Shown here: positions 4,026-39,776 of the stretch, piece after piece
Position numbering within the stretch: position 1 is the stretch's first letter
How the letters are laid out: each line of letters begins with the position of its first letter
Assembly: GCA_022827905.1 (NCBI GenBank)
Contig: JAJEIQ010000041.1
Span: 1 to 41,183, forward strand
DNA: 41,183 bases
Reading direction: 5' to 3'
Source: Pseudomonadales bacterium
GTDB lineage: Bacteria; Pseudomonadota; Gammaproteobacteria; Pseudomonadales; Azotimanducaceae
Notes under the pieces: model-generated
Told to the model about the DNA's origin: nothing
The model's database searches: none
The model's input: only the letters and a program-made list of their open reading frames with translations
Made by a program: the position numbers and the translations under genes

Positions 4026-4053
4026 GTGACAGATGCGCCTTTTACACTATATT
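4026..4053 (+). promoter_or_regulatory. Probable sigma-70 promoter of the P450-SDR-yjbQ operon
   Basis: GTGACA (4026-4031, five of six matches to TTGACA) and TATATT (4048-4053, five of six to TATAAT) are separated by 16 bases. The site starts immediately after the palindromic element and leaves a leader of about 60 bases before the P450 start. This is the only strong match I see between the divergent genes. Confidence 0.55.
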
Positions 4054-4120
4054 GAACGCCAATGCCTTGTTGAGCATCCCATTTCCTGCCTTTTCCCCTG
4101 CGCGACCGGAGGTTCGCCAC

Positions 4121-6311: not shown

Positions 6312-6333
6312 CTGGACCAAGCAAGGGCTTTCC

Positions 6334-6744
6334 ATGAACCTGACGTTGAACGTACGCAACAACGGCCAGGGCTTAAGCGAAATCACGGCGGAAGTGGCGG
6401 CAGCGGTGCAAGGCTGCGGGGTGCGGGACGGGCTGGCCACCCTCTACATCAGGCACACATCGGCAAGCCTGATCATCCAGGAAAACGCCGACCCCAGCGT
6501 TGTGCAAGACCTGCAGCACTGGCTGAACCGGTTGGTGCCGGAGAACGATGACCTCTACACCCACACCGCGGAAGGCCCGGACGACATGCCCGCGCACATC
6601 AAGTCCGCGCTAACCGCCACCAGCCTGTCGATTCCGCTAGTGAACGGCGAACTGGCCCTGGGAACCTGGCAAGGCGTCTTCCTGTGGGAGCACCGCCACC
6701 ATCGCGGCGAACGGCAGGTGTTGATCAACGTGCTTGGCGAGTAG
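6334..6744 (+). CDS. yjbQ: YjbQ family (UPF0047) protein
   Basis: This 136-residue protein of the UPF0047/YjbQ family is annotated elsewhere as secondary thiamine-phosphate synthase; its physiological role is unsettled. Family marks are 'LYIRHTSASLIIQENADP', 'DDMPAHIKSAL', 'LALGTWQGVFLWEHR' and the invariant histidines in 'RHTSAS', 'PAHIK' and 'WEHR'. The start is ATG 6334, because the protein then begins at the normal family N-terminus; the same frame is open far upstream but antisense-like. It lies 22 bases after the SDR stop, likely in the same transcript. YjbQ genes are often found with unrelated neighbours. Confidence 0.92.
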   Translation: MNLTLNVRNNGQGLSEITAEVAAAVQGCGVRDGLATLYIRHTSASLIIQENADPSVVQDLQHWLNRLVPENDDLYTHTAEGPDDMPAHIKSALTATSLSIPLVNGELALGTWQGVFLWEHRHHRGERQVLINVLGE

Positions 6745-6750
6745 CGAGCA

Positions 6751-6776
6751 ATTCACGCCGTAAATTCACGCCGTAA
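6751..6776. repeat. Perfect 13-base tandem duplication
   Basis: attcacgccgtaa occurs twice head to tail just after the yjbQ stop. The first ten bases also occur at 3969-3978 directly before the palindromic element there, so the unit is probably part of the same dispersed element, partly duplicated here. No terminator-like hairpin is visible in the 100-base gap. Confidence 0.7.
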
Positions 6777-6847
6777 CTCAAGGCTTCCCGTTCGGCCCGG
6801 AATGGGGTAAAAAGCTCCTTTCCACGGTAATCCACTTGGGGGAGTTG

Positions 6848-7288
6848 ATGCCGAGCATCGCAGACCAGATTCCAATCGCCGAAGGGCTGTTCACTTGGCC
6901 GTCCAACGACCCGCGCTTGATCGGCAGCAAGTGCAACGATTGCGGGACGGTCACTTTCCCCGCCCAGTCCGGCTGCCCGGCCTGCTGCGGGGAGAACACC
7001 GAGCCCATTGAGCTTGAGCGCAAGGGCAAGCTCTGGACTTGGACCATTCAGGGTTTTCTGCCCAATCGCCCGCCCTACGAAGGCCCGGAGACGCCCGAGA
7101 CCTTTGAGCCCTTTGGCGTCGGCTACGTGGAGTTGCCGAATCAGGTGCGCGTCGAAACCCGCATCCAAACCGAGGACATCGCCAAGTTGCGCATCGGCAT
7201 GGAAATGGACTTGGTGGTCGAAAAGTACATCGAACGCGATGGCAAGGACATCATCGCCTATTTCTTCCGGCCAGCGGACGAGAGCTGA
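6848..7288 (+). CDS. DUF35 zinc-ribbon/OB-fold protein (thiolase partner)
   Basis: This 146-residue protein of the DUF35 type has an N-terminal zinc ribbon with two Cys pairs ('CNDCG' and 'CPACC') and a C-terminal OB-fold ('GKLWTWTIQGF', 'PFGVGYVEL', 'GMEMDLVVEKY'). DUF35 proteins partner with thiolase-fold proteins. In steroid degraders, DUF35 plus Ltp2-type proteins form a CoA-ester aldolase. The thiolase-like gene follows after 62 bases, in that usual order. I place the start at ATG 6848, with a G-rich 'gggggag' before it, rather than the TTG 12 bases earlier. Confidence 0.9.
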   Translation: MPSIADQIPIAEGLFTWPSNDPRLIGSKCNDCGTVTFPAQSGCPACCGENTEPIELERKGKLWTWTIQGFLPNRPPYEGPETPETFEPFGVGYVELPNQVRVETRIQTEDIAKLRIGMEMDLVVEKYIERDGKDIIAYFFRPADES

Positions 7289-7350: not shown

Positions 7351-8493
7351 GTGGACGTAGCAATCATTGGCATCGGCATCCATCCCTTCGGCCGCACCGA
7401 GGGCGTCACCGGCCTCGAGCAGGGCGTGCACGCGGCCCGGGAAGCGCTCAAGGACGTGGGCCTCGACTGGAACGACATGGAGTTCGCCTACGGCGGCTCA
7501 TCGGCGGCCGGCAACGCCGACTCCATGGTCTCCAAGCTCGGGCTGACCGGCCTGCAGTTCATCAACGTCTCCAACGGCTGCGCCACCGGCGGCAGCGCCC
7601 TGCAGTCGGCCTACATGGCCATCCAATCGGGCATGTTCGACATCGGCATGGCGGTGGGCTTCGACAAGCACCCCCGGGGCGCCTTCACCGTCAACCCAGA
7701 GGCCAGCGGGCTCGGCAAGTGGTACGGCGACATCGGCATGGCGCTGACGCCGCAGTTCTTCGGCATGAAGATCCAACGCTACATGCATGAGTACGACATC
7801 AGCGAGGACACGCTCATCCGCGTCGCCGTCAAGAACTTCAAGAACGGCGCCAAGAACCCCAACGCCTGGCGGCGCAACGCCTTCAGCTACGACGACGTGG
7901 CGCAGTCGCAGATGGTCTGCCATCCGCTGCGCAAGTACATGTTCTGCTCCCCGGCGGAGGGCGGCTGCGCCATGATCCTGTGCCGCGCCGACAAGGCCAA
8001 GCAGTACACCTCCAACCCGGTGTTCCTGAAGGCCGTGGCGGTGAAAACCCGGCAATTCGGCTCCTTCGAGGTGTTCTCCCAATCCCAGGCCCTCGAACGG
8101 GCGCCCGCGCCGACGGTGCAGGCCTCCACCGCGGCCTTCGAGATGGCCGGCATCGGCCCCGAGGACATCGACGTCGCCCAACTGCAGGACACCGAATCCG
8201 GCGCCGAGATCATGCACATGGCCGAAAACGGCTTCTGCGCAGACGGCGACCAGGAGAAGTGGCTGCGTGAAGGCCACACGGAAATCGACGGCAAGCTGCC
8301 GGTCAACACCGATGGCGGCTGCCTCGCCAACGGCGAGCCGGTGGGTGCTTCCGGCCTGCGGCAGGTCTATGAAATCTGCCTGCAACTGCGCGGCGAGGCG
8401 GGCGAGCGCCAAGTGCCGAACGACCCGAAGACCGGCTACACCCATGTGTACGGCGCACCGGGGCTGAGCGGCGTCACCATCATGGCGGCTTAG
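7351..8493 (+). CDS. Thiolase-fold acyl-CoA protein (lipid-transfer-protein/SCPx type)
   Basis: This 380-residue thiolase-superfamily protein has a GTG start with 'gaaggag' eight bases before it. The nucleophile-position Cys is present at 77 ('SNGCATGG'). However, the motif that normally reads GHPxGATG reads 'GEPVGASG' (328-335), so the catalytic His is replaced by Glu329. The C-terminal 'GAPGLSGVTIM' lacks the usual CxG Cys. This is the pattern of non-thiolytic family members ('lipid-transfer protein' types), some of which act as retro-aldolases with a DUF35 partner. The DUF35 gene is directly upstream. Expected work: C-C bond cleavage or formation on a CoA-ester. A plain thiolase reaction looks unlikely. 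Confidence 0.88.
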   Translation: MDVAIIGIGIHPFGRTEGVTGLEQGVHAAREALKDVGLDWNDMEFAYGGSSAAGNADSMVSKLGLTGLQFINVSNGCATGGSALQSAYMAIQSGMFDIGMAVGFDKHPRGAFTVNPEASGLGKWYGDIGMALTPQFFGMKIQRYMHEYDISEDTLIRVAVKNFKNGAKNPNAWRRNAFSYDDVAQSQMVCHPLRKYMFCSPAEGGCAMILCRADKAKQYTSNPVFLKAVAVKTRQFGSFEVFSQSQALERAPAPTVQASTAAFEMAGIGPEDIDVAQLQDTESGAEIMHMAENGFCADGDQEKWLREGHTEIDGKLPVNTDGGCLANGEPVGASGLRQVYEICLQLRGEAGERQVPNDPKTGYTHVYGAPGLSGVTIMAA

Positions 8494-8538
8494 CGAAGCA
8501 AGCACTGAGCAAGTTGCCCAATCGGCAGGAGTCCTAGG

Positions 8539-9330
8539 ATGCCTGGCACTGAAGCCACGCTCTATGAAGTGGGCACGGGCGCTGCTTGGATCACGCTGAA
8601 CCGGCCCGAAAACCGCAATGCGCTATCGGCGGTGCTGGTCAACGAGCTGTTCGACCACATCCAAGACGCCTTGGCCGACGATGCAGTGCGCAGCATCGTC
8701 ATCACTGGCGCGGATCCCGCGTTCTGCGCCGGCGCGGATCTCAAGAGCCCGCCGGGCGAAATCATCGACGGTCAGCGAACGGTGCCCTACACCGATGTGT
8801 TGAACGCCATCCTGGAAAGTCCCAAGCCAGTCATCGCGGCCGTCAACGGCGCGGCGTTTGCCGGGGGCTTGGGCTTGGTCGGCGCCGCCGACATCGTCCT
8901 GATGGCCGAAGAGGCGCAATGCAGCTTCAGCGAAGTGCGCATCGGCGTCATACCGGCCGTCATCTCGGTGGTCTGCCTGCCGAAGCTTGGCGTCCACCAC
9001 GGCATGAAGCTGTTTCTGACCGGCGAACGCTTCAACGGCACCCAAGCCGTGACCATGGGCTTGGCCCACCGGGCGGTTCCGAGGGCCCTGCTCACAGCCG
9101 CCGTCCAAAAGGAAGTGGACATGATCAATCTCGGCGGCCCCATCGCGGTGACCGAGTGCAAGAAGCTGGTGCGTCGGGTGCCGGAACTGTCCATTGAGGA
9201 AGGCTTCGAGGTGACCAGCGAATGGAGCGGGCGCATGTTCCGCTCGGACGAAGCCGCCGAGGGCATGGCGGCGTTCAGGGAGAAGCGCAAGCCGAGCTGG
9301 GTCGAAGACGCCTCGCCTTCGGCGAGGTGA
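8539..9330 (+). CDS. Enoyl-CoA hydratase (crotonase family, methylglutaconyl-type)
   Basis: This crotonase-fold hydratase has 263 residues. Oxyanion-hole segments are 'FCAGADL' (62-68) and 'AFAGGLGL' (106-113). The catalytic Glu is at 132 in 'FSEVRIGVIPAVIS', a form typical of methylglutaconyl-CoA and isohexenyl-glutaconyl-CoA hydratases of the Leu/isoprenoid (Liu/Atu) routes. The last residues (ASPSAR) and the stop are encoded by a palindromic element, so the native C-terminus probably ended near 'PSWVED'. 'aggag' lies before the ATG. It sits between the thiolase-like and AtuA-like genes on one strand, consistent with one CoA-ester pathway. Confidence 0.92.
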   Translation: MPGTEATLYEVGTGAAWITLNRPENRNALSAVLVNELFDHIQDALADDAVRSIVITGADPAFCAGADLKSPPGEIIDGQRTVPYTDVLNAILESPKPVIAAVNGAAFAGGLGLVGAADIVLMAEEAQCSFSEVRIGVIPAVISVVCLPKLGVHHGMKLFLTGERFNGTQAVTMGLAHRAVPRALLTAAVQKEVDMINLGGPIAVTECKKLVRRVPELSIEEGFEVTSEWSGRMFRSDEAAEGMAAFREKRKPSWVEDASPSAR

Positions 9331-9387
9331 TCGAGTTGCTGACGCAACTGCGCGAGCAAGCTCGCGTTTGAGTTGCTACGCAACTCA
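9311..9387. repeat. Cluster of four palindromes overlapping the end of the enoyl-CoA hydratase gene
   Basis: Hairpins in order: cctcgcc-ttc-ggcgagg (9311-9327, coding, directly before the TGA); gagttgc/gcaact (about 9333-9348, imperfect); cgcgagc-aa-gctcgcg (9351-9366); tgagttgc-tac-gcaactca (9369-9387). The gagttgc/gcaactc unit is shared with 3976-3994. The cluster fills the whole gap up to the AtuA-like gene's ribosome binding site. Confidence 0.75.
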
Positions 9388-9417
9388 GCGTAGGTTGCAA
9401 GAACTGGAAGGGAAACC

Positions 9418-11193
9418 ATGAGCGACATCATCCGAATTGGCAACTGCAGTGGCTACTACGGCGACCGCCTCGCCGCAGCCCGGGAACTGATCGACGGCGG
9501 CCCCATCGATGTGCTGACCGGCGACTACCTAGCCGAACTCACCATGTCCATCCTGCACAACCAACGCACCACCCGGGGCGAGCACCTCGGCTACGTCGGC
9601 ACCTTCCTCAAGCAGGTGCGGGACGTGGCCGCCGATTGCGTGGCTCGGGGCATCAAGATCGTCACCAATGCCGGCGGCCTCAATCCCAAGGGCATGGCGG
9701 ACGAAGTGGAGAAAATCCTGGCCGAATTGGGGGTGGAGGCCAAGGTCGCCTACATCGATGGCGACGACCTGCTCGGCGACCTTGAGACCCTCCAAGCCGA
9801 GGGACAGGCGTTCACCAATCTCGACACCGGCGCCACCTTGGCCGATTCCGGCCAAGAGGCGCTCACCGCCAACGTCTATTTCGGCGCTTGGGGCATCAAG
9901 GAGGCCTTGGACCAGGGCGCGGACATCGTGATCTGCCCGCGAGTGACCGACGCCGCAGTGGTCATCGGCCCGGCGGCCTGGAAGTTCAACTGGCGGCGCA
10001 ACGACTACGATGCCCTGGCCGGGGCCTTGGCCGCGGGACACATCATCGAGTGCGGCACCCAATGCTGCGGCGGCAACTACTCGTTCTTCGAGGAAGTCCC
10101 CTCCTTCCGCAGCATGGGCTACCCCATCGCTGAGATCGAGGCCGACGGCAGCTTCACCATCACCAAGAATCCGGGCACCGGCGGGCTGGTCTCGGTGGGC
10201 ACGGTGACCGCCCAACTGCTCTACGAGATATCCACGCCGGCCTACATGAACCCCGACGTCATCGCCCACTTCGAAACCATGACGGTCCAACAGGACGGCG
10301 AGGACCGGGTGCGGGTCACCGGCGTGCGCGGCAGCAGCCCGCCGCCAACCCACAAGGTCTGCTTCAACACCTTGGGCCCCCACAAGCAGACCGCCGAAGT
10401 GCTGCTGACCGGTCTCGACATCGAGCGCAAGGCCGAGGTTCACGTCGATCAGATGCTCCACAATCTTGGCGGCCGCGAACAGTTCGACGACGTGGACGTT
10501 CAGTTGCTTCGCACCGACCATGAGGATCCGGATTGCAACGAGGCCGCCCATGCCATTCTGCGCGTGACCGTGACCACCCAAGACCCGGCCAAGGTGGGAC
10601 GCCTGTTCGACGCCAAGGTCATCGAACTCGCCCTAGGCGCCGTGCCAGGGAACGCCGGCGCTGGGGGCGGGGGCTTCAAGGGCGGGCGCGCCACCATCCA
10701 CTGGCCCGCCGTCATCGACAGCGAATGGGTCACTGAGCGGGTGCATTGCGCCGGTAAAACCACGGACGTGCTGCCGACCCAACGGTTGGGCCTTGAGGAA
10801 ATCTACTATCAGCAACCGCCCGCCGACATCGCCCCCGCCCCCGCCGGCGAAGCCACCAAGTTGCCCTTTGGACGGCTGTTCGGCACCCGCTCCGGGGACA
10901 AGGGCGGCAACGCCAACTGCGGCGTCTGGGCGCGCAGCGACGCAGCCTACAGCTTCCTCCACGAATACCTGACGGTGGATGAGTTCAAGCGCCTGCTGCC
11001 GGACATGGCGGCCTATGCGGTGGAGCGCTACGAGCTGCCCAACCTGCGCGCCCTGAACTTCCACATCCGCGGCGTGCTCGGCACCGGCGCAGCGTCCAAC
11101 CACCGCATCGACAAGCAGGCCAAGTCACTCGGCGAATACCTGCGCGCCAAGCACATCGAAGTGCCCCAGCCCCTGGCCCGGGCCGCTTCCTGA
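9418..11193 (+). CDS. AtuA-like (acyclic terpene utilization, DUF1446) protein
   Basis: This 591-residue protein has two parts: the large AtuA domain (about 4-440; start 'IRIGNCSGYYGDR', with 'IVTNAGGLNPKGM' and 'VICPRVTDAAVV') and a small C-terminal AtuA-like domain (about 485-585; 'FGRLFGTRSGDKGGNANCGVW', 'YELPNLRALNFHI', ending in 'LGEYLRAKHIEVP'). AtuA is encoded in the citronellol/geraniol degradation cluster of pseudomonads, where its exact reaction is unresolved; relatives appear beside acyl-CoA carboxylases and hydratases. 'gaaggga' precedes the ATG. The other Atu genes (carboxylase AtuC/F, lyase) are absent from the window, so a complete acyclic terpene pathway is not supported here. 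Confidence 0.9.
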   Translation: MSDIIRIGNCSGYYGDRLAAARELIDGGPIDVLTGDYLAELTMSILHNQRTTRGEHLGYVGTFLKQVRDVAADCVARGIKIVTNAGGLNPKGMADEVEKILAELGVEAKVAYIDGDDLLGDLETLQAEGQAFTNLDTGATLADSGQEALTANVYFGAWGIKEALDQGADIVICPRVTDAAVVIGPAAWKFNWRRNDYDALAGALAAGHIIECGTQCCGGNYSFFEEVPSFRSMGYPIAEIEADGSFTITKNPGTGGLVSVGTVTAQLLYEISTPAYMNPDVIAHFETMTVQQDGEDRVRVTGVRGSSPPPTHKVCFNTLGPHKQTAEVLLTGLDIERKAEVHVDQMLHNLGGREQFDDVDVQLLRTDHEDPDCNEAAHAILRVTVTTQDPAKVGRLFDAKVIELALGAVPGNAGAGGGGFKGGRATIHWPAVIDSEWVTERVHCAGKTTDVLPTQRLGLEEIYYQQPPADIAPAPAGEATKLPFGRLFGTRSGDKGGNANCGVWARSDAAYSFLHEYLTVDEFKRLLPDMAAYAVERYELPNLRALNFHIRGVLGTGAASNHRIDKQAKSLGEYLRAKHIEVPQPLARAAS

Positions 11194-14418: not shown

Positions 14419-14480
14419 CGAGGGCGGGACGCCCTCGCTCCGGGCGTCAGCTTCGACCTCGCTCCGGGTGTCAGCTTCGG
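14419..14480. repeat. Palindrome plus 24-base tandem duplication
   Basis: Hairpin cgagggcg-gga-cgccctcg (14419-14437) is followed by two head-to-tail 24-base copies (14433-14456 and 14457-14480) that differ at two positions; each begins cctcgctccggg. The second copy overlaps the stop codon of the dimethylformamidase-like gene (minus strand). The gccctcgctccg part matches 13198-13209 in reverse complement. Confidence 0.75.
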
Positions 14481-15922
14481 CCCGTGAAGCGGCGCAGCAG
14501 GTTGCGGGTCACGGTCGCCACGTCATCGCATTGCAGGCCGTAGGCCCAGTCCGTGCAGCCGGTGGTGAACACTTCCCCCTTGCCACGCCGGAAGGTGCCC
14601 ATGACGGCGTGGCCCTCTTCGAAGCGAGCCCGGTTCTCAGGGGTGTCGCCGCCGCCTAGGCGTTCGGCCACCCAGTTCAGTTCGCCGATGTAGCTGTCGT
14701 GTAGCCCATCGGGTGCCTCCTGGGTCTCCCACAACCGGGCGGGCGCGCTGGCCAGCACTTGGAAGCCGTCGGGCGCGCCGCCAGCCGCAGCATGCGGCAC
14801 GCCCTCTCGCTCAACGAGTGCACAGCCGTCGCACTCGTAGCCCACCACCAAGCCATCAGCGCCCAGCGGCGCCCCCGGTTCAAGCGACAGCGACTCGAAG
14901 GCCCAATGATCGGGCTGCCAGACTTGGTAGCCGCCGGTGCCCCGAGGCGCGTTGGGCATGTGCGCATAGCCGCCACGGGTGAACGACACCCCGGTCATCA
15001 GGCTCTCCGGCCTTCCCACGAGGGGATCGGACCACATCGTGGAGAGATGGGGAGCGTGAACCGGGTCATGCAGCGGGTCGGCCTCAAACGCCGTCTTGTA
15101 GCACACCAAGCGGCTGTGCCCCGCCTCGAAGCGGGCCTGCCAGAAGGCCGTGTTGCCGGACAGAAAGGCGGCGTTGCCGCCGTCGTCAATGTACGCCTCC
15201 ACTTGGTCCCGCATGCCCGCCGTCCAGTACTCGTCGTGGCCGATGGAGAGAGTGCAGGGATAGCCGTCCAGCAGGCTCGCATCCCGGTCCAGATCGGCGC
15301 TGGTCGCATAGCCGAGCCGAAACCCCTGCGCCTCCGCCCAAGCGACGAACAACCGCTCCCAATTAGCCCAGCCCGCGGCCATGCACCAAGGTGAATGGCC
15401 CGCCTTGGCAAAGCTGCGGGCATCGTCCTTCGACCAATCCCGATAGCGGGCGATGCGATGGCGCATCGGATCGCTTTTCTCCAGGAAGCCCGGCGGCAGC
15501 GGGCGGCGCAACGAGCCGGTTTGGCCGCCGGTGTAGAAGCTCGGTCCGCCCCAATTGTTGTAGGCGGTCCAAGTTGAGGTGGACAGGACCAGCAGGGCAT
15601 CCGCAGGCTCCGCCGCGCGCACTACGAAGAAGGCGTCACCCCGTTCGCCGCTATCGTGGATCAAGCGAACCAAGTAGAAACCCGATGGCCAATCCGCCCC
15701 GACCTCAAAGGTGAGGCTCGGCTGCCAGTCGCAGCCTTGGGACGCGAGGTCGCCATCGAGCGGTTGCGGACCCAAGGCGATGCCCGTTCGATCAAGCACC
15801 GTCTGCTCCCCAGCGCCCTGGCGGACCACCTGCGCACGGACCCGCCCCGCCTCGCCGTGGCAGTACAGGGTTACCGTTTCCCCCGGCCGTAAACTCTGCG
15901 GCCAACAGTACCCGGCGAGCAT
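14471..15922 (-). CDS. N,N-dimethylformamidase large-subunit-like protein
   Basis: This 483-residue protein is related to the beta (large) subunit of dimethylformamidase, an iron amidohydrolase with a two-Tyr-one-Glu metal site. Recognisable segments are 'LLVLSTSTWTAYNNWGGPSFY' (about 111-130), 'LSIGHDEYWTAGMRDQVE' (about 225-242), 'NAAFLSGNTAFWQ' and the C-terminal 'AVMGTFRRGKGEVFTTG'. Tyr121, other nearby Tyr residues and Glu231 are candidate ligands, but I cannot assign them one by one. It is shorter than the ~760-residue enzyme and lacks most of the N-terminal lectin-like part. No small-subunit gene is seen. It starts directly after the stop of the CaiB gene (TAG-ATG, no gap), so they are co-translated. 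The substrate is unknown. Confidence 0.82.
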   Translation of the reverse strand: MLAGYCWPQSLRPGETVTLYCHGEAGRVRAQVVRQGAGEQTVLDRTGIALGPQPLDGDLASQGCDWQPSLTFEVGADWPSGFYLVRLIHDSGERGDAFFVVRAAEPADALLVLSTSTWTAYNNWGGPSFYTGGQTGSLRRPLPPGFLEKSDPMRHRIARYRDWSKDDARSFAKAGHSPWCMAAGWANWERLFVAWAEAQGFRLGYATSADLDRDASLLDGYPCTLSIGHDEYWTAGMRDQVEAYIDDGGNAAFLSGNTAFWQARFEAGHSRLVCYKTAFEADPLHDPVHAPHLSTMWSDPLVGRPESLMTGVSFTRGGYAHMPNAPRGTGGYQVWQPDHWAFESLSLEPGAPLGADGLVVGYECDGCALVEREGVPHAAAGGAPDGFQVLASAPARLWETQEAPDGLHDSYIGELNWVAERLGGGDTPENRARFEEGHAVMGTFRRGKGEVFTTGCTDWAYGLQCDDVATVTRNLLRRFTGRS

Positions 15923-25771: not shown

Positions 25772-26248
25772 ATGGGGCGAATCGAAACACGGCTCGATGA
25801 GCTCGGCATCGTGCTGCCGAAGCCCATGGATTTGGGGCCACTGCCCTTTGAATTGGTGCGTATCCACGGCGAGCGGGCCATTCTTTCCGGCCACTTGCCG
25901 TTGGACGCCGAAGGCGCCCTCGCCCAGCCACTCGGCAAGGTGGGCGCGGAGGTCAGCGCCGAGCAGGGTTACCAAGCGGCGCGGCTGGTGGGTTGTGCGC
26001 TGCTGGCGAGCCTTAAGCAGGCGCTTGGCGAACTCGACCGGGTGGTGGGTTGGGTGCGGCTGTTCGGCATGGTCAATGCAGCACCCGGCTTCAACCGCCT
26101 GCCGGCGGTCATCAACGGCTGCTCGGAACTGGTCCTTGAGGTCTTCGGCCCGGAAGTGGGCGCCCACGCCCGCTCGGCGGTGGGCTTGGCGGAACTGCCC
26201 TTCGGCGCCCCGGTGGAGCTGGAAGGCGAAGTGCTGATCCGTCCATGA
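25772..26248 (+). CDS. RidA (YjgF) family protein
   Basis: This 158-residue protein has a RidA-type fold: 'IHGERAILSGHLPLD', 'GYQAARLVGCALLASLKQALGELDRV', 'RLFGMVNAAPGF', and a final 'ARSAVGLAELPFGAPVELEGEV', where the Arg corresponds to the substrate-binding Arg of RidA deaminases. It is longer than the ~128-residue RidA, as in the RutC/Rid-4-7-like groups. Expected activity: hydrolysis of reactive enamines/imines. Its stop overlaps the start of the dihydroorotase gene (ATGA), so the two are translated together; a link to an N-containing intermediate is plausible. Confidence 0.9.
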   Translation: MGRIETRLDELGIVLPKPMDLGPLPFELVRIHGERAILSGHLPLDAEGALAQPLGKVGAEVSAEQGYQAARLVGCALLASLKQALGELDRVVGWVRLFGMVNAAPGFNRLPAVINGCSELVLEVFGPEVGAHARSAVGLAELPFGAPVELEGEVLIRP

Positions 26249-27567
26249 GCAGGCAACGCATCGTCAACGCCCGCATCGTCAACGAAGGCGCCGTCATTGA
26301 AGGGGATGTGCTGATCGAGGACGGGCGCATCGCCGCGGTCGGCACGGCACCGGATGGACCGGGCGACGTCACGGACGCCCAAGGCGCTTGGCTGCTGCCG
26401 GGCATGATCGACGATCAGGTGCATTTCCGGGAGCCCGGCCTCACCCACAAGGGCAACATTGCCAGCGAGTCGGCGGCGGCGGTGGCCGGGGGCATCACCA
26501 GCTACATGGAGATGCCGAACTGCGACCCGCTGACCATTAATCAGGCCCGACTCAACGACAAGCGCGAGCGCGCCGCAAGCTGTTCGCACGCCAACTACGC
26601 CTTCTACCTCGGCGCCACCAACGACAACCTAGAGGACATCAAGTCGATTGATCCGGCCAGCGCCTGCGGCGTCAAGGTGTTCATGGGGGCGAGCACCGGC
26701 GACATGCTGGTGGACGACCCCGAGGCTTTGGAGGGCATCTTCGCCTCGACGCCCCTGCTGATCGCCACCCACTGCGAGGACACGCCCACCATTGAAGCCA
26801 ACGAGGCCGCTGCCTTGGCCCGCTACGGCGAGGACATCCCCATCTCGGAGCATCCCCGCATCCGCTCGGAGGAGGCCTGCTACAAGTCATCTGAGTTGGC
26901 CGTCCAACTGGCCAAGCGGCACGGTTCCAAGCTGCATGTGCTGCATCTCACCACGGCGCGGGAACTGGCCCACTTCGCAACCGGCGACCTAGCTGGCAAG
27001 CGCATCACCGCCGAGGCCTGCGTGCACCACCTGTTCTTTGACGAGAGCTGGTACGCCAAGAAAGGCAACGACATCAAGTGCAACCCGGCCATCAAGCGCA
27101 CCGAGGACCGGGAGGCGCTGCTGGCGGCGGTCAGCGACGGGCGCATCGACGTGATCGCCACTGACCACGCACCGCACACGCGGGAGGAGAAGTCCCGTCC
27201 CTTTCGGCAGGCACCCGCCGGGCTGCCGCTGGTCCAGCACGCCTTGCTGAGCCTCTTCGAGCATTGCCGCCGGGGCCTGTTCGACGTGACCACCATCGTC
27301 CAAAAGACCGCCCACGCCCCGGCGCGGCTGTTCGGCGTCCGTGAGCGGGGCTTCATCCGCGAGGGCTACCACGCCGACCTCGTGCTGGTGAGTGAAGACC
27401 CCACCGACGGAGGCGCCAACCTCCTCGCCAAGTGCGGCTGGAGCCCCTTTGCTGGCATCGAATTCAGCCACCGCATCAAAGCCACTTGGGTCAACGGCGT
27501 GCAGCGCTTCGCCGACGGCAAGCTGCTGGACGGCCTGTTTGGGCAAGCCCTCGAATTCAACCGCTGA
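26245..27567 (+). CDS. pyrC: Dihydroorotase-like cyclic amidohydrolase with variant metal motif
   Basis: This 440-residue member of the dihydroorotase/hydantoinase family would act in pyrimidine synthesis (carbamoyl-aspartate to dihydroorotate) if it is a true dihydroorotase. The usual HxH is 'D57-Q58-V-H60-FREPG', so the first metal His is Gln. The bridging Lys is likely K144 ('GVKVFMGAS'); His176 ('THCED'), 'HVLHLTTA' and Asp in 'ATDHAPH' are kept. The form 'DDQVHFREPGLTHKG' is one I know from a recognised subgroup of dihydroorotases. It overlaps the RidA-like gene by four bases. A catabolic dihydropyrimidinase-like role is the alternative. Confidence 0.88.
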   Translation: MSRQRIVNARIVNEGAVIEGDVLIEDGRIAAVGTAPDGPGDVTDAQGAWLLPGMIDDQVHFREPGLTHKGNIASESAAAVAGGITSYMEMPNCDPLTINQARLNDKRERAASCSHANYAFYLGATNDNLEDIKSIDPASACGVKVFMGASTGDMLVDDPEALEGIFASTPLLIATHCEDTPTIEANEAAALARYGEDIPISEHPRIRSEEACYKSSELAVQLAKRHGSKLHVLHLTTARELAHFATGDLAGKRITAEACVHHLFFDESWYAKKGNDIKCNPAIKRTEDREALLAAVSDGRIDVIATDHAPHTREEKSRPFRQAPAGLPLVQHALLSLFEHCRRGLFDVTTIVQKTAHAPARLFGVRERGFIREGYHADLVLVSEDPTDGGANLLAKCGWSPFAGIEFSHRIKATWVNGVQRFADGKLLDGLFGQALEFNR

Positions 27568-33536: not shown

Positions 33537-34304
33537 ATGAATTCCACATCGGAAAAAGCCTTCCGGTTGCCAGCAGACCAGCGGTCCGTGGTCATCGAAA
33601 CCGCGTTGCTGGCTTGGGTGTTTGAGGCGATGGATTCGCCTGGCCAGATCAACGTCCTGGATGTCGGCCCCGCCATGCCCCGGACCATCGAGTTTCTCAA
33701 CGCCATGCGCTGCCGCGTGCACATAGCAGATCTTTTCGACAGCACGCTCATCGAGCAACAGAAGCATTTGGACCCAGACGCCCTGACGGACCGCTTCACC
33801 GAAGCCCTGTGGATGCTTGACGGACCGTTGCATGCCTGCCTGCTGTGGGACTTCCCAAACTATCTCGCCCCCCCGGCTTTAGAGGCTTTGAACCGAGCGC
33901 TGAGCCCTTGGGTGACCGCCGATACCAGGGCGCACGCATTTTGCGCGGTAAAACGAGCGGCGCCTCTTATGCAGCATCAATACAGCATTCTCAGCGCCAG
34001 CGAAATCGTCCAAAAGGCCGCCCCCGAGCGCCCGCCGGCCGACTACCCCCATCCTTGGCGGCGGTTGGTCGGGGCATTGGATTTGTTCGACGTCGACCGA
34101 GGCGCCTTGCGAGCCGGGGGGTTGGTGGAAGTCATCCTGCACGGCACAGCCCAGCAATCCGCCGAACCGCCGTTGCGGACCATTGAGAAGGTCAAGGACA
34201 TCCCCCTTCGCCCATCGGCAAGCCAAAGCCAGCCTCGAGCCCAGCACGCCGCGCGCCCGGTTGCGGACTCTCAGGGGGCAACGCCGCGGGCGATCTCCCG
34301 GTAG
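33537..34304 (+). CDS. Rossmann-like protein with a methyltransferase-type motif, unknown function
   Basis: This 255-residue protein has an ATG at 33537, 31 bases after the bactofilin stop. 'INVLDVGPAMPRTIEFLNAMRCRVHIADLFDS' resembles motif I and the acidic loop of SAM-dependent methyltransferases, and 'LLWDFPNYLAPPALEALNRALSPWVTADT' resembles the motif IV/V region, though residues are not diagnostic. From about residue 225 the tail is low-complexity and overlaps the opposite gene. The function is unknown. The operon position behind a bactofilin suggests envelope or cell-shape work; this is inference. Confidence 0.7.
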   Translation: MNSTSEKAFRLPADQRSVVIETALLAWVFEAMDSPGQINVLDVGPAMPRTIEFLNAMRCRVHIADLFDSTLIEQQKHLDPDALTDRFTEALWMLDGPLHACLLWDFPNYLAPPALEALNRALSPWVTADTRAHAFCAVKRAAPLMQHQYSILSASEIVQKAAPERPPADYPHPWRRLVGALDLFDVDRGALRAGGLVEVILHGTAQQSAEPPLRTIEKVKDIPLRPSASQSQPRAQHAARPVADSQGATPRAISR

Positions 34305-34993
34305 ATATTGCTCATCTTCAGCGTGAACAGCCGCCGCATGCGCTCCTGCCAGGGCGTGACGCTGTAGTTGGCGAACTTAGGGTTCTGAAAGGCCTCGATG
34401 CCGTCGATATCCCAGATGGACAGGTGGGTGAACAATTCGCCGCCCTCGCCGAGTATCGGCGGAAACTCGTCGCTGCGATGCACATAGCGGCGCACGGTGT
34501 TGAACCCCGGCTCGCACAGCACCAACGGCATGTGCTCCTCCACGTACCACTCGTTGAATTCCTCGTGGATCGCCTCGGGCACCTCGTGGGCGGAAAGGAA
34601 CACGTACTTGGTATCCGGCAGCAGCGGCTGGTTCGGTTCCGGATACTCACCAATCAGTTCCAGCACCCCCCGGGCCAGCTTCGGCAGCGTCATGGTCAGG
34701 TGCTCGAAACTGTCGGGCGGCGTTGCCATCCAGCGCTCGGTGACCGCATCGTAGGCCGGCCCGGTCAGCACATCGGTGTCGGGCAGTTCCATGATCGCGA
34801 GGTACTTGGCCTGGCCACCTTGGCGGGTGTCAACCTGCGGCTGGTCGGGGACGATCTCGAAACGGCGGAAGGCCAGGAAGCCGCACTCGAAACGGCCGGG
34901 CGAGTGTACGCTGGAATACCAATCGTTCCATTCGTCTTCGCGTTCCTGGGGTGGATCCGTCTTGATTACCGTTATCGCACGGGGCTTGGACAT
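34271..34993 (-). CDS. Tandem EthD-like (dimeric alpha/beta barrel) protein
   Basis: This 240-residue protein is made of two related ferredoxin-like halves. The first holds 'NDWYSSVHSP' (23-32), the second 'NEWYVEEHMP' (147-156); both match the 'W....H.P' pattern of EthD / DUF4286-like small barrels. EthD-type proteins accompany oxygenases and carry out unclear accessory steps on aromatic or ether compounds. The internal duplication gives one chain with both halves of the usual dimer. Its last 34 bases overlap the 3' end of the opposite gene. It is transcribed away from the MFS gene at 35 kb, which might share a regulator. Confidence 0.8.
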   Translation of the reverse strand: MSKPRAITVIKTDPPQEREDEWNDWYSSVHSPGRFECGFLAFRRFEIVPDQPQVDTRQGGQAKYLAIMELPDTDVLTGPAYDAVTERWMATPPDSFEHLTMTLPKLARGVLELIGEYPEPNQPLLPDTKYVFLSAHEVPEAIHEEFNEWYVEEHMPLVLCEPGFNTVRRYVHRSDEFPPILGEGGELFTHLSIWDIDGIEAFQNPKFANYSVTPWQERMRRLFTLKMSNIYREIARGVAP

Positions 34994-35020
34994 GTTCGTC
35001 TCCTTTGTTTGGGGCTTCCG

Positions 35021-35032
35021 GTCAGCGCTGAC
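35021..35032. promoter_or_regulatory. 12-base perfect palindrome in a divergent gap
   Basis: gtcagcgctgac is perfectly self-complementary and lies between the divergent EthD-like gene (minus) and the MFS transporter gene (plus), in a gap of only about 60 bases. This is a plausible operator position. No regulator gene is adjacent, so it is a candidate only. Confidence 0.35.
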
Positions 35033-35049
35033 GCTGGCATAGTAGCAGC

Positions 35050-35066
35050 ATCCGGTTGACCCGGAT
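35050..35066 (+). promoter_or_regulatory. Hairpin around the predicted start codon of the MFS gene
   Basis: atccgg-ttgac-ccggat folds with the TTG at 35056 in its loop. No clear Shine-Dalgarno precedes it. Either the hairpin affects initiation, or the real start is the GTG at 35071, five codons on. Confidence 0.3.
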
Positions 35067-36447
35067 CATCGTGGAGGCAGAACCCATCGACCCCGCAGCG
35101 GATTCCAGAGCTCGGCCCGACCCCGGCGAACAAGCGCCGGGAACCCGGCTAATCTACCCTTGGTACGTGGTCGTGATCCTATTGCTCGCGATGGTGGTGT
35201 CGTTCATCGACCGGCAAGTGATCACCCTGCTCGTGGCGCCAATTCGCGCCGATCTCGGCATCAGCGACACGCAGATGAGTCTCTTGATGGGGTTCGCCTT
35301 TGCGATTTTCTATGTGACCATGGGCGTTCCCATCGCCCGTTTGGCAGACCGTTACAGTCGGCGCACCATCATCGCCGCCGGCATCTTCCTGTGGAGCCTG
35401 GCCACCGCAGCGTGCGGCTTGGCCCGCAGTTTTCTGCAACTGTTCACCGCCCGGGTCTTCGTCGGCGTGGGCGAGGCCACCCTGACGCCGGCCGCCTACT
35501 CCATGATCGCCGACTACTTTCCGCCGGAACGCTTAGGCCGCGCCATCGCCGTTTACGCCACCGGCGTCTTCATCGGCGGCGGCCTCGCCCTCGTTCTCGG
35601 CGGTGCTGCCATCCGCCTGATCACCGAGTCGGGGCCGATGGACCTGCCGCTGGTGGGCACGCTCGCTCCCTGGCAACTCACTTTTATCGTGGTGAGCCTC
35701 CCGGGCCTGTTGATCGTGCTCCTGATGATGTTCACGGTGCGCGAGCCGGTGCGCAGGAACTTGGCCAAGACCACCGAAAAGAGCATCCCCGTACGGGAGG
35801 TGGCACAGTTCATGTGGACCAACCGGGGCACCTTCGGCTCCATCTTTTTCGGCTATGGCTCCGGTGGCATCGCCTTCTACGGCTTCATGTCCTGGGTGCC
35901 GGAGTTCATCCGCCGCACTTACGGCTGGAACATCTCCGATGCTGGGATCGTGTTCGGCGCGCAACTCATGGTGCTGGGGACGCTCGGCACCTACGCTGGG
36001 GGCTGGTTCTGCGACTGGCTGACCGCCCGCGGCTACAAGGATGCGGCAATGCGCTCACTGGCCGCGTTCTTCGCGCTGGCCATGCCGTTCATGGCCATAG
36101 CGCCGCTCATGCCGACGGCGGCATGGGGCATTCCCGCATTGGGCGTCGCCGCATTTACCCTGTCGCTGCAACAGGCGCTATCACCCGTCGCAATCCAGCT
36201 TTTCACACCCAACCAGATGCGCGCCCAGGTGGTGGCCGTGTACTTCGTGATCTCCGTGTTCGCCGCCATCGCCTTCGGCTCCCTGTCGGTGGCGGTGATG
36301 ACCGACTATGTCTTTAAGGACGACGACGCCCTAGGCCTCTCGCTTGCCGTTGTTTCAGCAGTCACCATGACTTTGGCCGCAATCAGCCTGGCACTCGGCA
36401 TCAAGCCCTACCGGAAAAGCTTGGAACGGGCAGCCGCGTGGCGCTGA
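35056..36447 (+). CDS. MFS transporter (spinster-like / phthalate-permease-like)
   Basis: This 463-residue transporter has 12 predicted membrane segments starting at 'YPWYVVVILLLAMVVSFIDRQVI'. Family marks are 'DRQVITLLVAPIRADLGISDTQMSLLMGFAFAIFYV', 'RLADRYSRRTIIAAGI' (motif A) and 'FVGVGEATLTPAAYSMIADYFPPERLGRAIAVY'. This is the group near spinster and organic-acid MFS permeases common in catabolic clusters. The start is TTG 35056 or GTG 35071. Its substrate is unknown. The stop is next to the broken thiamine-binding-type gene stump on the other strand, so the 3' end lies at a probable rearrangement junction. Confidence 0.88.
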   Translation: MTRIIVEAEPIDPAADSRARPDPGEQAPGTRLIYPWYVVVILLLAMVVSFIDRQVITLLVAPIRADLGISDTQMSLLMGFAFAIFYVTMGVPIARLADRYSRRTIIAAGIFLWSLATAACGLARSFLQLFTARVFVGVGEATLTPAAYSMIADYFPPERLGRAIAVYATGVFIGGGLALVLGGAAIRLITESGPMDLPLVGTLAPWQLTFIVVSLPGLLIVLLMMFTVREPVRRNLAKTTEKSIPVREVAQFMWTNRGTFGSIFFGYGSGGIAFYGFMSWVPEFIRRTYGWNISDAGIVFGAQLMVLGTLGTYAGGWFCDWLTARGYKDAAMRSLAAFFALAMPFMAIAPLMPTAAWGIPALGVAAFTLSLQQALSPVAIQLFTPNQMRAQVVAVYFVISVFAAIAFGSLSVAVMTDYVFKDDDALGLSLAVVSAVTMTLAAISLALGIKPYRKSLERAAAWR

Positions 36448-36524: not shown

Positions 36525-37421
36525 TCAGCCTCCCGGCCTGCGCATCAACAGCCCAAGTTCACTCGGGGTTTCAAATTCCGACTCAACCACCAGCCCATGG
36601 CGCTTGGCGAACGAGCCGATCACCGCTCGTTCCCGGCGGCTAATGTCCTGGCGCCGGGCCAGCGCTTGGCGGGAGCCGGTGACCACCAGCCAGTCCGCCG
36701 GCGCATCCGCCAGCATTGCCAGCAAACGAGGCTGCTGGCGCGCCACCACCGGCACCAGCTTGAGCAGTAGGGCCGCATCATAGCGCTGGATGCCGGTTTG
36801 AGTCGCCAAGGCTTCCCAGCCATCGCCGATGTCCCAAACGTGGCCTTCCAAGACACCCGGCGTCACTTGACCGTATGCATTGATGGCTTCGATGCATCGC
36901 GCATCCCGGTCGCAGGCCACGTAGCGCTGGAGGCGGCCATCAACCCGGTCAAACGGAAACAGTAAGGGCATCAGGCCACAGCCGATGTCCAGCAGCGTGG
37001 CGCAATCGCCCCAAACCGGATGGGTGCGCTCCAGGAATCCGTCCAAGTCCGGCCACCGCTCAGCGGTGCTGGCGTGGCTGCGGGCTAGGGCCTCGCACGC
37101 CGCTTGGCACTCCGCACCCGCGGCGGCACGGCGCAACCGTTCAAGCCCCTCGGAAAACTCGTCGGATTGCGGGCGATAGCGCCGCAAACGGTAGTAGATG
37201 TCCTTCTTGGCCTGCGACGCCGCCTGCCGATAGAGGCGGGTGCGGGCCAATGCGCGGGGCGAAGGGGTCTTTCGGGCCAGCGCCCGCAGCGCCTGATGGC
37301 TGAGCCACGATCCTTCGATGCGGGCGCGGGCCTGGTCCGCGCCGATGCGGTAGCGCCGGGCCGCTTCCTGCGCCACCTGCTCCGCGAGTTGCGCCAAAAC
37401 GGGCTCCAATGCGTCACTCAT
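36525..37421 (-). CDS. FmrO/Rmt-family 16S rRNA (m7G1405) methyltransferase homologue
   Basis: This is a 298-residue homologue of the FmrO family, whose characterised members (Sgm, ArmA, RmtB) methylate N7 of G1405 in 16S rRNA and give high-level aminoglycoside resistance. Seen: a helical N-terminal domain, 'HASTAER' (116-122), a hallmark of the family, SAM motif I 'LLDIGCGLMPLLFPF' (143-157), and a C-terminal 'SRQALARRQDI' where family members have 'RSLGGR'. The start ATG 37421 overlaps the stop of the transglycosylase gene by eight bases, so translation is coupled. It is divergent from the antibiotic-resistance members; whether it acts on G1405, or on any rRNA, is unknown. Confidence 0.78.
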   Translation of the reverse strand: MSDALEPVLAQLAEQVAQEAARRYRIGADQARARIEGSWLSHQALRALARKTPSPRALARTRLYRQAASQAKKDIYYRLRRYRPQSDEFSEGLERLRRAAAGAECQAACEALARSHASTAERWPDLDGFLERTHPVWGDCATLLDIGCGLMPLLFPFDRVDGRLQRYVACDRDARCIEAINAYGQVTPGVLEGHVWDIGDGWEALATQTGIQRYDAALLLKLVPVVARQQPRLLAMLADAPADWLVVTGSRQALARRQDISRRERAVIGSFAKRHGLVVESEFETPSELGLLMRRPGG

Positions 37422-38475
37422 GCAGCGCTTCCCAAGTGGGCCCCAGCCGGCTTTCCGGAAACCAGCGTTGGTGGACGTCAAGCAACGCCTGCAAGTGGTG
37501 ATTCAAGTCGCCGTCCCGCGCAAGCAAGGCGCGCAGTTCCCGAACCGTGTGGCAGATGGTCCACAGGTTGTGGGCCTTGAGCGCTTCAAAGTCCGCAAAC
37601 ACCGCCTCAACCGATTCAGCCCCGACACAGTGGGGGCAGGGACAGCGATACTCGCCCGCCAGCAGCCGCCCTGGATCGGCCAAAGCGCCGTAAGGGGTCA
37701 TGTACCAGCCGCCGCGCGCGTAGTGGGCATAGGAGGACGAATCGAAGACATCCGCTCCCAGCGCCACCATGAAGGGCAGTTCCACCGGCTCGCCGGCGCC
37801 GTACACGTGCATCGGCACTTGCTCGCCGATCAGCCGGCGCGCGTCGCGCAGCACGGCGCCGGCAAAGGCCAAGCTGTGCGCCCGATTGAAGAAGGGCACG
37901 AGGCTGCCGATGGCCAAGTACTCGACTTCAAGCTCGGCCATGTGGGCGGCGCTGTCGCGACGGAGATCCAAGAAGCGTCCGCCTTGCTGCACCCCGGCCA
38001 CCAAGCCACGCTCGGCGATGGCCAGCGCTTGGCCCACCCGCTTGTGCGTGGTGCGCATCTTGCCAAGGGCCGTGGTCCGCTTATCCCCCGGCGGCGTGAT
38101 GAGGTCCAAGGGCGAAATGATGTCGCTGCCAATGCGGTCCTGAAAGCGCACGATGTCCGCGTTCTTGAGATACAGCCGCCGGGTCAGTCCCTGAAAGGCC
38201 CCGGAATCCGTGGCGATCAAGCCTGAAAAACCGACGTGGGCCTTGAGCGACGACGGACCGGTGAGCCATTCGGCGTACCGTTCGGCGAGCTGTTCGCGCA
38301 GTTCCCGCTGCTTGTAGAGAAAATAAGCGTTGACGATGCAGCCGTCGATTTCCTCGCGGGCCAATTGGAATACCGGCTCCCGAGGTTGGTAAACCGGCAG
38401 GAAGAGCGGCAAGGCATGGCGCACGCCATCCTTGGTGCGCAGCGTGCGACGATCGGCCATCGAACCCAAGCTCAT
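37414..38475 (-). CDS. Archaeal-type guanine transglycosylase (TGT) catalytic core
   Basis: This 353-residue protein has a tRNA-guanine transglycosylase fold. Its motifs match archaeosine TGT, not bacterial queuine TGT: 'NAYFLYKQRELR' (49-60), catalytic 'DSGAFQ' (90-95), 'FQDRIGSDIISPLDLITPPG', 'HVYGAGEPVELPFMVALGADVFDSSSYAHYA' with the nucleophile-position Asp235, zinc ligands C268-x-C270-x2-C273 and H292 ('AHNLW'). The archaeal C-terminal PUA domains are absent. ATG 38475 overlaps the MFS stop (ATGA). TGTs swap guanine for a 7-deazaguanine; the target here (tRNA, rRNA or DNA) is unknown. Confidence 0.88.
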   Translation of the reverse strand: MSLGSMADRRTLRTKDGVRHALPLFLPVYQPREPVFQLAREEIDGCIVNAYFLYKQRELREQLAERYAEWLTGPSSLKAHVGFSGLIATDSGAFQGLTRRLYLKNADIVRFQDRIGSDIISPLDLITPPGDKRTTALGKMRTTHKRVGQALAIAERGLVAGVQQGGRFLDLRRDSAAHMAELEVEYLAIGSLVPFFNRAHSLAFAGAVLRDARRLIGEQVPMHVYGAGEPVELPFMVALGADVFDSSSYAHYARGGWYMTPYGALADPGRLLAGEYRCPCPHCVGAESVEAVFADFEALKAHNLWTICHTVRELRALLARDGDLNHHLQALLDVHQRWFPESRLGPTWEALHE

Positions 38476-39776
38476 CGGGCCGGCGCCGGTGCGCCGCCCG
38501 GTTGGGGCAGGCGCAGCATGGCCACCGCCGCCATGGAAAAGGCAATCCCGACGATCACCACCACGAACGCCGGCAGGTAGCTGCCGGAGGTGTCGAAGAC
38601 CAGGGAGGCGAAGGGAAAGCCCAACAGCGAGAACAGCGTGGTCATGGGCGTCATCAGCCCCATCACCCGGGCGAAGGCGGCACGGCCGAAGAGCGTGCCC
38701 ATGAACACCGTCCACATGGGCATGACCGCGCCGTAGCCGAGCCCGAAGAAGAACGCCGCCACCATCAATCCAGCGGAATTGGTCAGCGCCACAATCAGCA
38801 CCAAGCCGATGGTCTGGGACACCAGCGAGGCGGCCATCATCAGCCGCTGGTTCAAGATGTCCGCCAAAACGCCGAACAAGGGCTTGGCCAAGGCCGCCAT
38901 GAAGGTGGCAACGGCCACCACCGAGGACGCTTGGACGGCGGACAGGCCCATGTCCGTGATGTGGGCGTGCAGGGCCAACAGCACGGCGCCGACCCCGAAG
39001 AAGCTCGGCCCCACGATGACGACCAGCAGCCAAATGCGGCGGTCGCGAAGCGCCCGGGCGAAGTTCCATGTGGAGACCGGCTCGCCAACCGGCTCGCCGT
39101 GCTCCTCCCCGCCGTCCGCCACCCATTGCCCATCCGGCTGAAGGTCCCTGTCCTCGGGACGGAAGACGGCGAACTTCCAGACCAAGGGAATCAACACGGC
39201 CCCCAAGGCGAGCCCCATCGAGGTCACTGCCCAGCGCCAGCCTTGGGTCTCCACCAGCCAGGACACGATCGGGACCATGACTGCCCCGGAAATTGAAATG
39301 CCGAACTGGGAGATGCCCAAGGCGGTGCCCCGCCGCTTGACGAACCAGTTGGCGATCATCGCATTGCTCGGCAATGCACCGATCAGGGTGCTGGCAACGG
39401 CCAGCACGATGCCGAAGGCCATGCACAGGTGCAGCCAATGCCGGGCTTGGCCAAACGCGACGAAGCCCAGAATCAACGCCGCAACGCCAATGCCCATCAG
39501 CTTGCGGATGGGCGTGCGCAGGATCAGCTTGCCCACCCAGGGGCTTAAGCACGCCACCACCAGGGTTTGCAGGGAAAAGGCCAGCGACACCGCGAACCGG
39601 TCCACCTCCAGCGCCTCGCTCAAGGGCTTCTGCAGCACGCCATAGGTGTAGAACATGCCCCCGACGGTGAACTGGGTCATGAAGGTGAAGGCAACGATGG
39701 ACCAGCCGAAGAAGAACGTTCGCGGCGCACCGGGGGGAGTGCTCAAAGATTGCCCCTTTCGATTCAAGCCCGTCAT
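38472..39776 (-). CDS. MFS transporter (monocarboxylate/OxlT-type)
   Basis: This 434-residue MFS protein has about 12 membrane segments. The opening 'FFFGWSIVAFTFMTQFTVGGMFYTYGVLQKPLSEAL' and 'KRRGTALGISQFGISISGAVMVP' are typical of the OxlT/monocarboxylate group, which moves organic acids. I begin at ATG 39776; the earlier GTG at 39797 has no ribosome binding site. It is the first gene of the operon and overlaps the transglycosylase gene by four bases (ATGA), so the three genes are tightly coupled. It could export or import a small acid or a base; no substrate can be assigned. Confidence 0.87.
   Translation of the reverse strand: MTGLNRKGQSLSTPPGAPRTFFFGWSIVAFTFMTQFTVGGMFYTYGVLQKPLSEALEVDRFAVSLAFSLQTLVVACLSPWVGKLILRTPIRKLMGIGVAALILGFVAFGQARHWLHLCMAFGIVLAVASTLIGALPSNAMIANWFVKRRGTALGISQFGISISGAVMVPIVSWLVETQGWRWAVTSMGLALGAVLIPLVWKFAVFRPEDRDLQPDGQWVADGGEEHGEPVGEPVSTWNFARALRDRRIWLLVVIVGPSFFGVGAVLLALHAHITDMGLSAVQASSVVAVATFMAALAKPLFGVLADILNQRLMMAASLVSQTIGLVLIVALTNSAGLMVAAFFFGLGYGAVMPMWTVFMGTLFGRAAFARVMGLMTPMTTLFSLLGFPFASLVFDTSGSYLPAFVVVIVGIAFSMAAVAMLRLPQPGGAPAPAR

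Follow-up and report, generated by a model that had tools for sequence, protein, structure and literature searches.

Why should a bacterium carry a gene for an archaeal-type guanine transglycosylase that overlaps a gene for a methyltransferase resembling those that act on ribosomal RNA? The question is raised by a contig stretch of 41,183 nucleotides from Pseudomonadales bacterium (assembly GCA_022827905.1, contig JAJEIQ010000041.1, positions 1 to 41,183), here called the window, in which the following features are found:

38472..39776, minus strand: major facilitator superfamily (MFS) transporter, 434 aa, a companion in the window's genus that stands outside the conserved pair
37414..38475, minus strand: archaeal-type (arcTGT-like) guanine transglycosylase (TGT), 353 aa, with the catalytic domain and zinc site only and no PUA region
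36525..37421, minus strand: FmrO/Rmt-like S-adenosylmethionine (SAM) methyltransferase, 298 aa, with HASTAER at residues 116-122
38472..38475, minus strand: overlap of the MFS stop with the TGT start, 4 bases
37414..37421, minus strand: overlap of the TGT stop with the methyltransferase start, 8 bases

The TGT-methyltransferase pair is a real, rare and conserved module, and the reading that we find most credible, tentatively held, is that of a two-enzyme RNA modification module, probably acting on 30S rRNA, that would protect against a ribosome-targeting compound. The initial annotation described three minus-strand genes overlapping by 4 and 8 bases; the coordinates agree, and both overlaps are identical in 4/4 other gene-carrying genomes of the genus, whose gene starts were placed by aligning them with the window. 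The pairwise ratio of nonsynonymous to synonymous substitution rates (dN/dS) among five species of the genus ranges over 0.08-0.14 for the TGT, 0.15-0.24 for the methyltransferase, and 0.16-0.26 for the MFS transporter. Since the overlaps recur in the genus, dN/dS is low, and the TGT and methyltransferase genes are adjacent in five phyla, the arrangement is more than chance.

Carriers of the TGT amount to 19 genomes from five phyla: the window's, 16 loci from a nonexhaustive scan with two peptide patterns (one genome per species, 84,980 species), and two genomes added by profile searches (G831 and G1595). The scan loci comprise four other gammaproteobacterial genomes of the window's genus, a Magnetococcales genome, four Actinokineospora, another actinomycetote, Lentisphaerae, four Desulfobacterales, and Sumerlaeia. 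Within the window's genus, five of the nine genomes searched contain the TGT, all five with the three genes; the remaining four, together with 49 genomes of the family and order (58 searched in all), give matches of at most 48 bits or none. A class-level search at E values up to 1e-15 finds the TGT in 1/369 genomes, the window's own, and a methyltransferase profile run against 398 Pseudomonadota recovers the window's genome and the same Magnetococcales genome, in the latter with the TGT next door. G831 comes from a search of its order in which 2/249 genomes are positive, the central genome G806 included, and G1595 from one of its family (2/300, the central genome G831 included). In the order search, 45 genomes match at E up to 1e-6, two of them at 546-611 bits and the next at 63, and because of this gap in score the pair TGT group is sharply bounded.

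Rarity of the adjacency in other genomes had been set beforehand as a refuting test; we observe the methyltransferase directly 3' of the TGT, on the same strand and either overlapping it or no more than about 50 bases away, in 17 of the 19 genomes. The unit of an archaeal-type TGT and an FmrO/Rmt-fold methyltransferase that was annotated from the window is thus borne out as conserved, being kept across five phyla. At locus L039 the methyltransferase lies 3.4 kb downstream of the TGT, and two very similar tandem ATPase-like genes stand between them (L039:1138-4391). A reverse search of 296 Actinomycetota yields two FmrO genes over the cut-off, both adjoining a TGT and one belonging to the central genome, and one further FmrO match below the cut-off, in G1072. 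FmrO over the cut-off is likewise limited to the central genome in the class of G815 (1/147) and in the phylum of G811 (1/115). An all-against-all comparison of the open reading frames of the 16 loci, antisense frames aside, reveals no family besides these two that is common to all lineages. Both gene trees return the actinobacterial, gammaproteobacterial, and Desulfobacterales rows each as a supported group; the Magnetococcales row is placed differently in the two, without strong support. The distance matrices of the two enzymes correlate at r 0.93 (18 loci) and 0.79 (10 representatives), with 0/2000 permutations each.

The MFS transporter, initially annotated as part of the unit, does not belong to its core. 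By tblastn it is present in the flanks of 5/19 TGT genomes, all in the window's genus (G831 and G1595 lie outside this test), and we rejected it on this ground. Its best NCBIfam matches are lactate and oxalate/formate types, all below cut-off.

What kind of enzymes are these? Judged by sequence, the TGT and the methyltransferase appear as clear superfamily members, neither of which passes the equivalog cut-off of a characterized family. The window TGT matches Pfam PF01702 with 130.7 bits (E 9e-38; cut-off 26.3), and its top NCBIfam model is arcTGT TIGR00432, with 193.4 bits against a cut-off of 350. The queuosine Tgt model TIGR00430 reaches 57.2 bits (cut-off 306.75) and the DpdA model NF041059 10.4 bits (cut-off 200). 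Catalytic aspartates, substrate-binding Asp/Gln, and a CxCxxC...H zinc site are kept in 17/17 aligned pair TGTs. In an alignment to the Pyrococcus horikoshii arcTGT structure 1iq8, the profile covers residues 25-344 of 582 only. A tree places 14 pair TGTs beside arcTGT (90/84) and separate from eight ordinary or phage Tgt rows; in it, the mis-framed row L043 and the drawn root are to be disregarded. The closest family and fold is arcTGT, minus its C-terminal domains. Relative to four genus orthologues, the window TGT has 8 extra residues after RELRE (residues about 62-69; window ~38264-38295).

The window methyltransferase passes Pfam FmrO (PF07091; 42.4 bits, gathering cut-off 27) and matches the NCBIfam Rmt model NF000466 (16S rRNA G1405-N7) with 73.8 bits, below the cut-off of 250. 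This Rmt model matches 16/16 pair methyltransferases at E up to 0.01, and none of the H, S, T, E, and R residues of HxSTxER varies among 16/16 aligned sequences. The structure model fits best to the Rmt/ArmA/Sgm 16S rRNA methyltransferases, and the Rmt catalytic-domain fold is present. In the N-terminal region, which is helical and 30S-binding in Rmt, six structural alignments begin at model residue 8-31 (rmsd 5.3-7.5), and those to RmtC and ArmA begin only at residues 80-85.

Which base could the TGT insert? Archaeal Tgt inserts preQ0 (7-cyano-7-deazaguanine) and bacterial Tgt preQ1, which the nitrile reductase QueF completes (PMC3660597). QueC, QueE, and QueD are encoded near the pair in 7/7 actinobacterial carriers, adjoining it in the four Actinokineospora and L037 and located about 14 kb off in G831 and G1595 (QueD in pair loci was located by tblastn). 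QueF was found in 0/7 of these carriers (five genomes plus G831 and G1595), and the pair TGT is the sole TGT over cut-off in the five actinobacterial genomes tested, with a second match below cut-off in G808. Because the QueC, QueE, and QueD genes are near, no QueF was found, and the TGT over cut-off is the only one, preQ0 is probably the base used in actinobacterial carriers. Across all 17 carriers searched, a separate Tgt accompanies the pair TGT in 11; in the window's genome, an ordinary Tgt is present along with QueC and QueF. G814 encodes FolE2 and QueE on the TGT's own contig, and neither a second Tgt nor QueF was found in G815.

In three actinomycetes, G831, G1595, and A. globicatena, the pair is located inside a polyketide synthase (PKS)-nonribosomal peptide synthetase (NRPS) cluster. 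The G831 region comprises QueC-QueE-QueD, ATP-grasp, thioesterase, NRPS genes, isopropylmalate-synthase-like protein, acyl carrier protein (ACP), amino acid:ACP ligase, acyl-CoA dehydrogenase, amidinotransferase-like protein (a name by reading, its Pfam support being limited to a brief match to arginine deiminase), carbamoyltransferase, TGT, methyltransferase, 3-hydroxyacyl-CoA dehydrogenase, two 2-oxoglutarate (2OG) oxygenases, and PKS genes. G1595 has the same gene set. Within about 10 kb, A. globicatena has QueC, QueE, QueD, ATP-grasp, ligase, ACP, both dehydrogenases, and PKS genes; a 2OG oxygenase was not found in the stretches searched. The other three Actinokineospora were compared over 13-kb loci only: L035 has the A. 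globicatena set minus the PKS and plus a 2OG oxygenase, L034 shows no match to the ACP or the 3-hydroxyacyl-CoA dehydrogenase, and L036 has ATP-grasp, 2OG oxygenase, QueC, QueE, and QueD only. Cluster protein identities to G831 are about 28 to 82%. The ligase, the ACP, and the two dehydrogenases presumably resemble the aminomalonyl-ACP cassette of zwittermicin and guadinomine, on which the open-licence papers searched offered nothing decisive. No aminocyclitol genes were seen in the PKS/NRPS regions of G831 and A. globicatena, where they were not searched for as families. Outside the actinomycetes, an NRPS operon adjoins the pair in the Magnetococcales genome. At the Desulfobacterales locus L041 (TGT 5896-7011), a malonyltransferase-PfaD polyketide gene (7524-10940) adjoins the TGT, and FolE2 and QueE share the TGT's contig (L088) in that genome.

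Starting from the observed pairing, folds, residues, preQ0 genes, and cluster, we infer which RNA is modified, which atom is methylated, and that resistance results, as follows. The TGT would swap an RNA guanine for preQ0, the presumed inserted base, and the methyltransferase would methylate a guanine of 16S rRNA in the 30S subunit, at N7 if family resemblance is a guide. Both marks would most likely lie in one ribosomal region and exclude a ribosome-targeting compound. Such a module could provide self-protection where the pair sits in an actinomycete PKS-NRPS cluster and protection from others' compounds elsewhere, e.g., in the window's genus. A more specific form of this proposal, possible but on balance doubtful, is rRNA base exchange, in which the arcTGT-like enzyme, fed by the cluster's preQ0 genes, would put 7-cyano-7-deazaguanine in 30S rRNA, its partner would methylate N7 of a neighbouring guanine, and the two would together exclude the PKS-NRPS antibiotic.

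The initial annotation also considered that both enzymes act in succession on the same base. Known chemistry excludes this: 7-deazaguanine lacks N7, so the TGT and an N7 methyltransferase cannot work successively on one base, and what chemistry permits is modification of different guanines or competition for one guanine. Its suggestion of resistance to a ribosome-targeting compound has become likelier, since a PKS-NRPS cluster surrounds the pair in some of the actinomycetes.

Several points weigh against protection of the ribosome by the pair. We know of no 7-deazaguanine in rRNA. The NCBIfam scores below cut-off mean that target and position may differ from those of arcTGT and Rmt, and a structural match does not show substrate. 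The listed translations from the surroundings of the pair in the window, L037, L038, L042, and L043 showed no PKS or NRPS gene; this gene-by-gene reading leaves out the four other gammaproteobacteria, and L039 and L040 are short. QueC is over cut-off in 13/17 genomes and missing in G801, G812, G814, and G815, which are draft assemblies and may salvage the base. L041 has the TGT and no methyltransferase within the 12-18 kb around it. Finally, within the window's genus the two trees disagree in one supported grouping: the TGT tree joins L028 to the window and L031, the methyltransferase tree to L029 and L030.

The strongest of the rivals, which we consider unlikely but worth serious attention, is that the pair modifies tRNA, the TGT putting preQ0 into the D-arm in an archaeosine-like manner and the methyltransferase adding a second tRNA mark, for translation or stress tolerance. 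The kinship of the TGT with arcTGT in family and fold speaks for it, and a general function would agree with the presence of the pair where no biosynthetic cluster is visible. However, in both sequence and fold the methyltransferase resembles the enzymes that methylate 16S rRNA, its matches to the tRNA enzyme METTL6 being far weaker (E 3e-4 to 6e-4), and the pair is very rare and patchy, a close match missing in 4/9 searched genomes of the genus.

That preQ0 instead becomes part of the cluster product and the methyltransferase decorates it would agree with the position of QueC-QueE-QueD and the pair in one PKS-NRPS region (G831, G1595, and A. globicatena) and with the known preQ0-derived nucleoside antibiotics (PMC11888242). 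We regard such a biosynthetic role as distinctly unlikely, as the same conserved residues are found in the pairs of the window, L037, L038, L042, and L043, near which no PKS/NRPS was seen, and as catalytic and zinc residues and the folds of RNA enzymes are retained.

Could the enzymes be independent and merely travel together, each on its own unrelated RNA? Both the solitary TGT of L041 and the discordant grouping in the window's genus would fit. We nevertheless hold this to be improbable, considering the fixed order, the overlap or close spacing in 17/19 genomes from five phyla, the correlated distances, and the four samples in which no FmrO-type gene over threshold lacks an adjoining TGT (in two of these samples, the central genome only).

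DNA modification or phage defence, as in the Dpd islands, whose TGT relative inserts 7-deazaguanines in DNA, is highly improbable: 13/17 pair TGTs have a DpdA match with E no higher than 0.01 (lowest 5.7e-10), a PADLOC TGT model gives 22.2 bits, and two haloarchaeal plasmid TGTs adjoin defence-type genes, but the window TGT scores 10.4 bits for DpdA against 193.4 for arcTGT, and the flanks share only the TGT and methyltransferase families across lineages (no individual search for each Dpd partner gene was made). The haloarchaeal genes in question lie beside DUF6884 and phospholipase D-like defence-type genes (L101:1090-2148) and beside EVE and BREX ATP-binding domain genes (L102:1042-2076), and are perhaps another DNA-modifying TGT group.

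Around the triple in the window's genus, bactofilin gene and orf33354 homologues adjoin in 4/4 other members, and a mobile island was rejected. In the window the pair is separated from the bactofilin region by an EthD-like gene (named from its translation) and a second MFS gene (34271-36447), and at E 1e-10 neither has a match in the equivalent parts of the other four members of the genus. Phage origin was also rejected: PHROGs gave no match, neither of two viral-contig scans turned up a relative, and the identity to two matching phage records is about 24%. The remaining window genes look catabolic in translation, among them cytochrome P450, N,N-dimethylformamidase-like, and dihydroorotase-like genes (4052-5416, 14471-15922, and 26245-27567). 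No known RNA element reaches gathering score at the pair in the window, and a scan of 11 other loci gave one thiamine pyrophosphate (TPP) riboswitch and no preQ1 riboswitch.

To our knowledge, TGTs are known to act only on tRNA and DNA, and a TGT whose gene stays next to that of a ribosome-type methyltransferase suggests that a third substrate may exist. Among the open-licence PMC papers listed in our searches, which exclude subscription papers, no title or abstract opening describes a TGT-FmrO pair. Both enzyme families are already known; rRNA as a TGT substrate would be categorically new. Base exchange on rRNA, if true, would be the first case known to us both of 7-deazaguanine in rRNA and of antibiotic resistance by transglycosylation, and base replacement is a possible resistance principle that resistance surveys would hardly seek. 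The pair is also a genome-mining handle for the unnamed PKS-NRPS product of Actinokineospora and relatives, and the module is directly testable, since DSM numbers are assigned to all four Actinokineospora strains that carry it.

How, then, does the pair compare with known systems? The archaeal arcTGT (TgtA, TIGR00432, 1iq8) targets G15 of tRNA. The pair TGT differs from it in being bacterial, in its length of 353 aa versus 582, without the C-terminal domains that include PUA, in its score below the equivalog cut-off, and in having a methyltransferase partner. Bacterial Tgt of the queuosine pathway (TIGR00430) has fold and kind of chemistry in common with the pair TGT but uses QueF-made preQ1, whereas QueF was not found in the actinobacterial pair carriers. 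DpdA of the 7-deazaguanine DNA islands (NF041059) belongs to the same TGT superfamily, and preQ0 genes are sometimes alongside it (PMC11888242); around the pair TGT, in contrast, the methyltransferase is the sole neighbour that recurs in all lineages. With the Rmt/ArmA/Sgm/FmrO 16S rRNA (G1405-N7) enzymes, the pair methyltransferase shares the catalytic-domain fold, the HxSTxER motif, the SAM site, and a Pfam FmrO match over cut-off. It is set apart from them by at most 25% identity in structural alignments, a score below the NCBIfam cut-off, another C-terminal stretch (DIxRRE, as aligned), its TGT partner and, where clustered, its place in a PKS-NRPS cluster.

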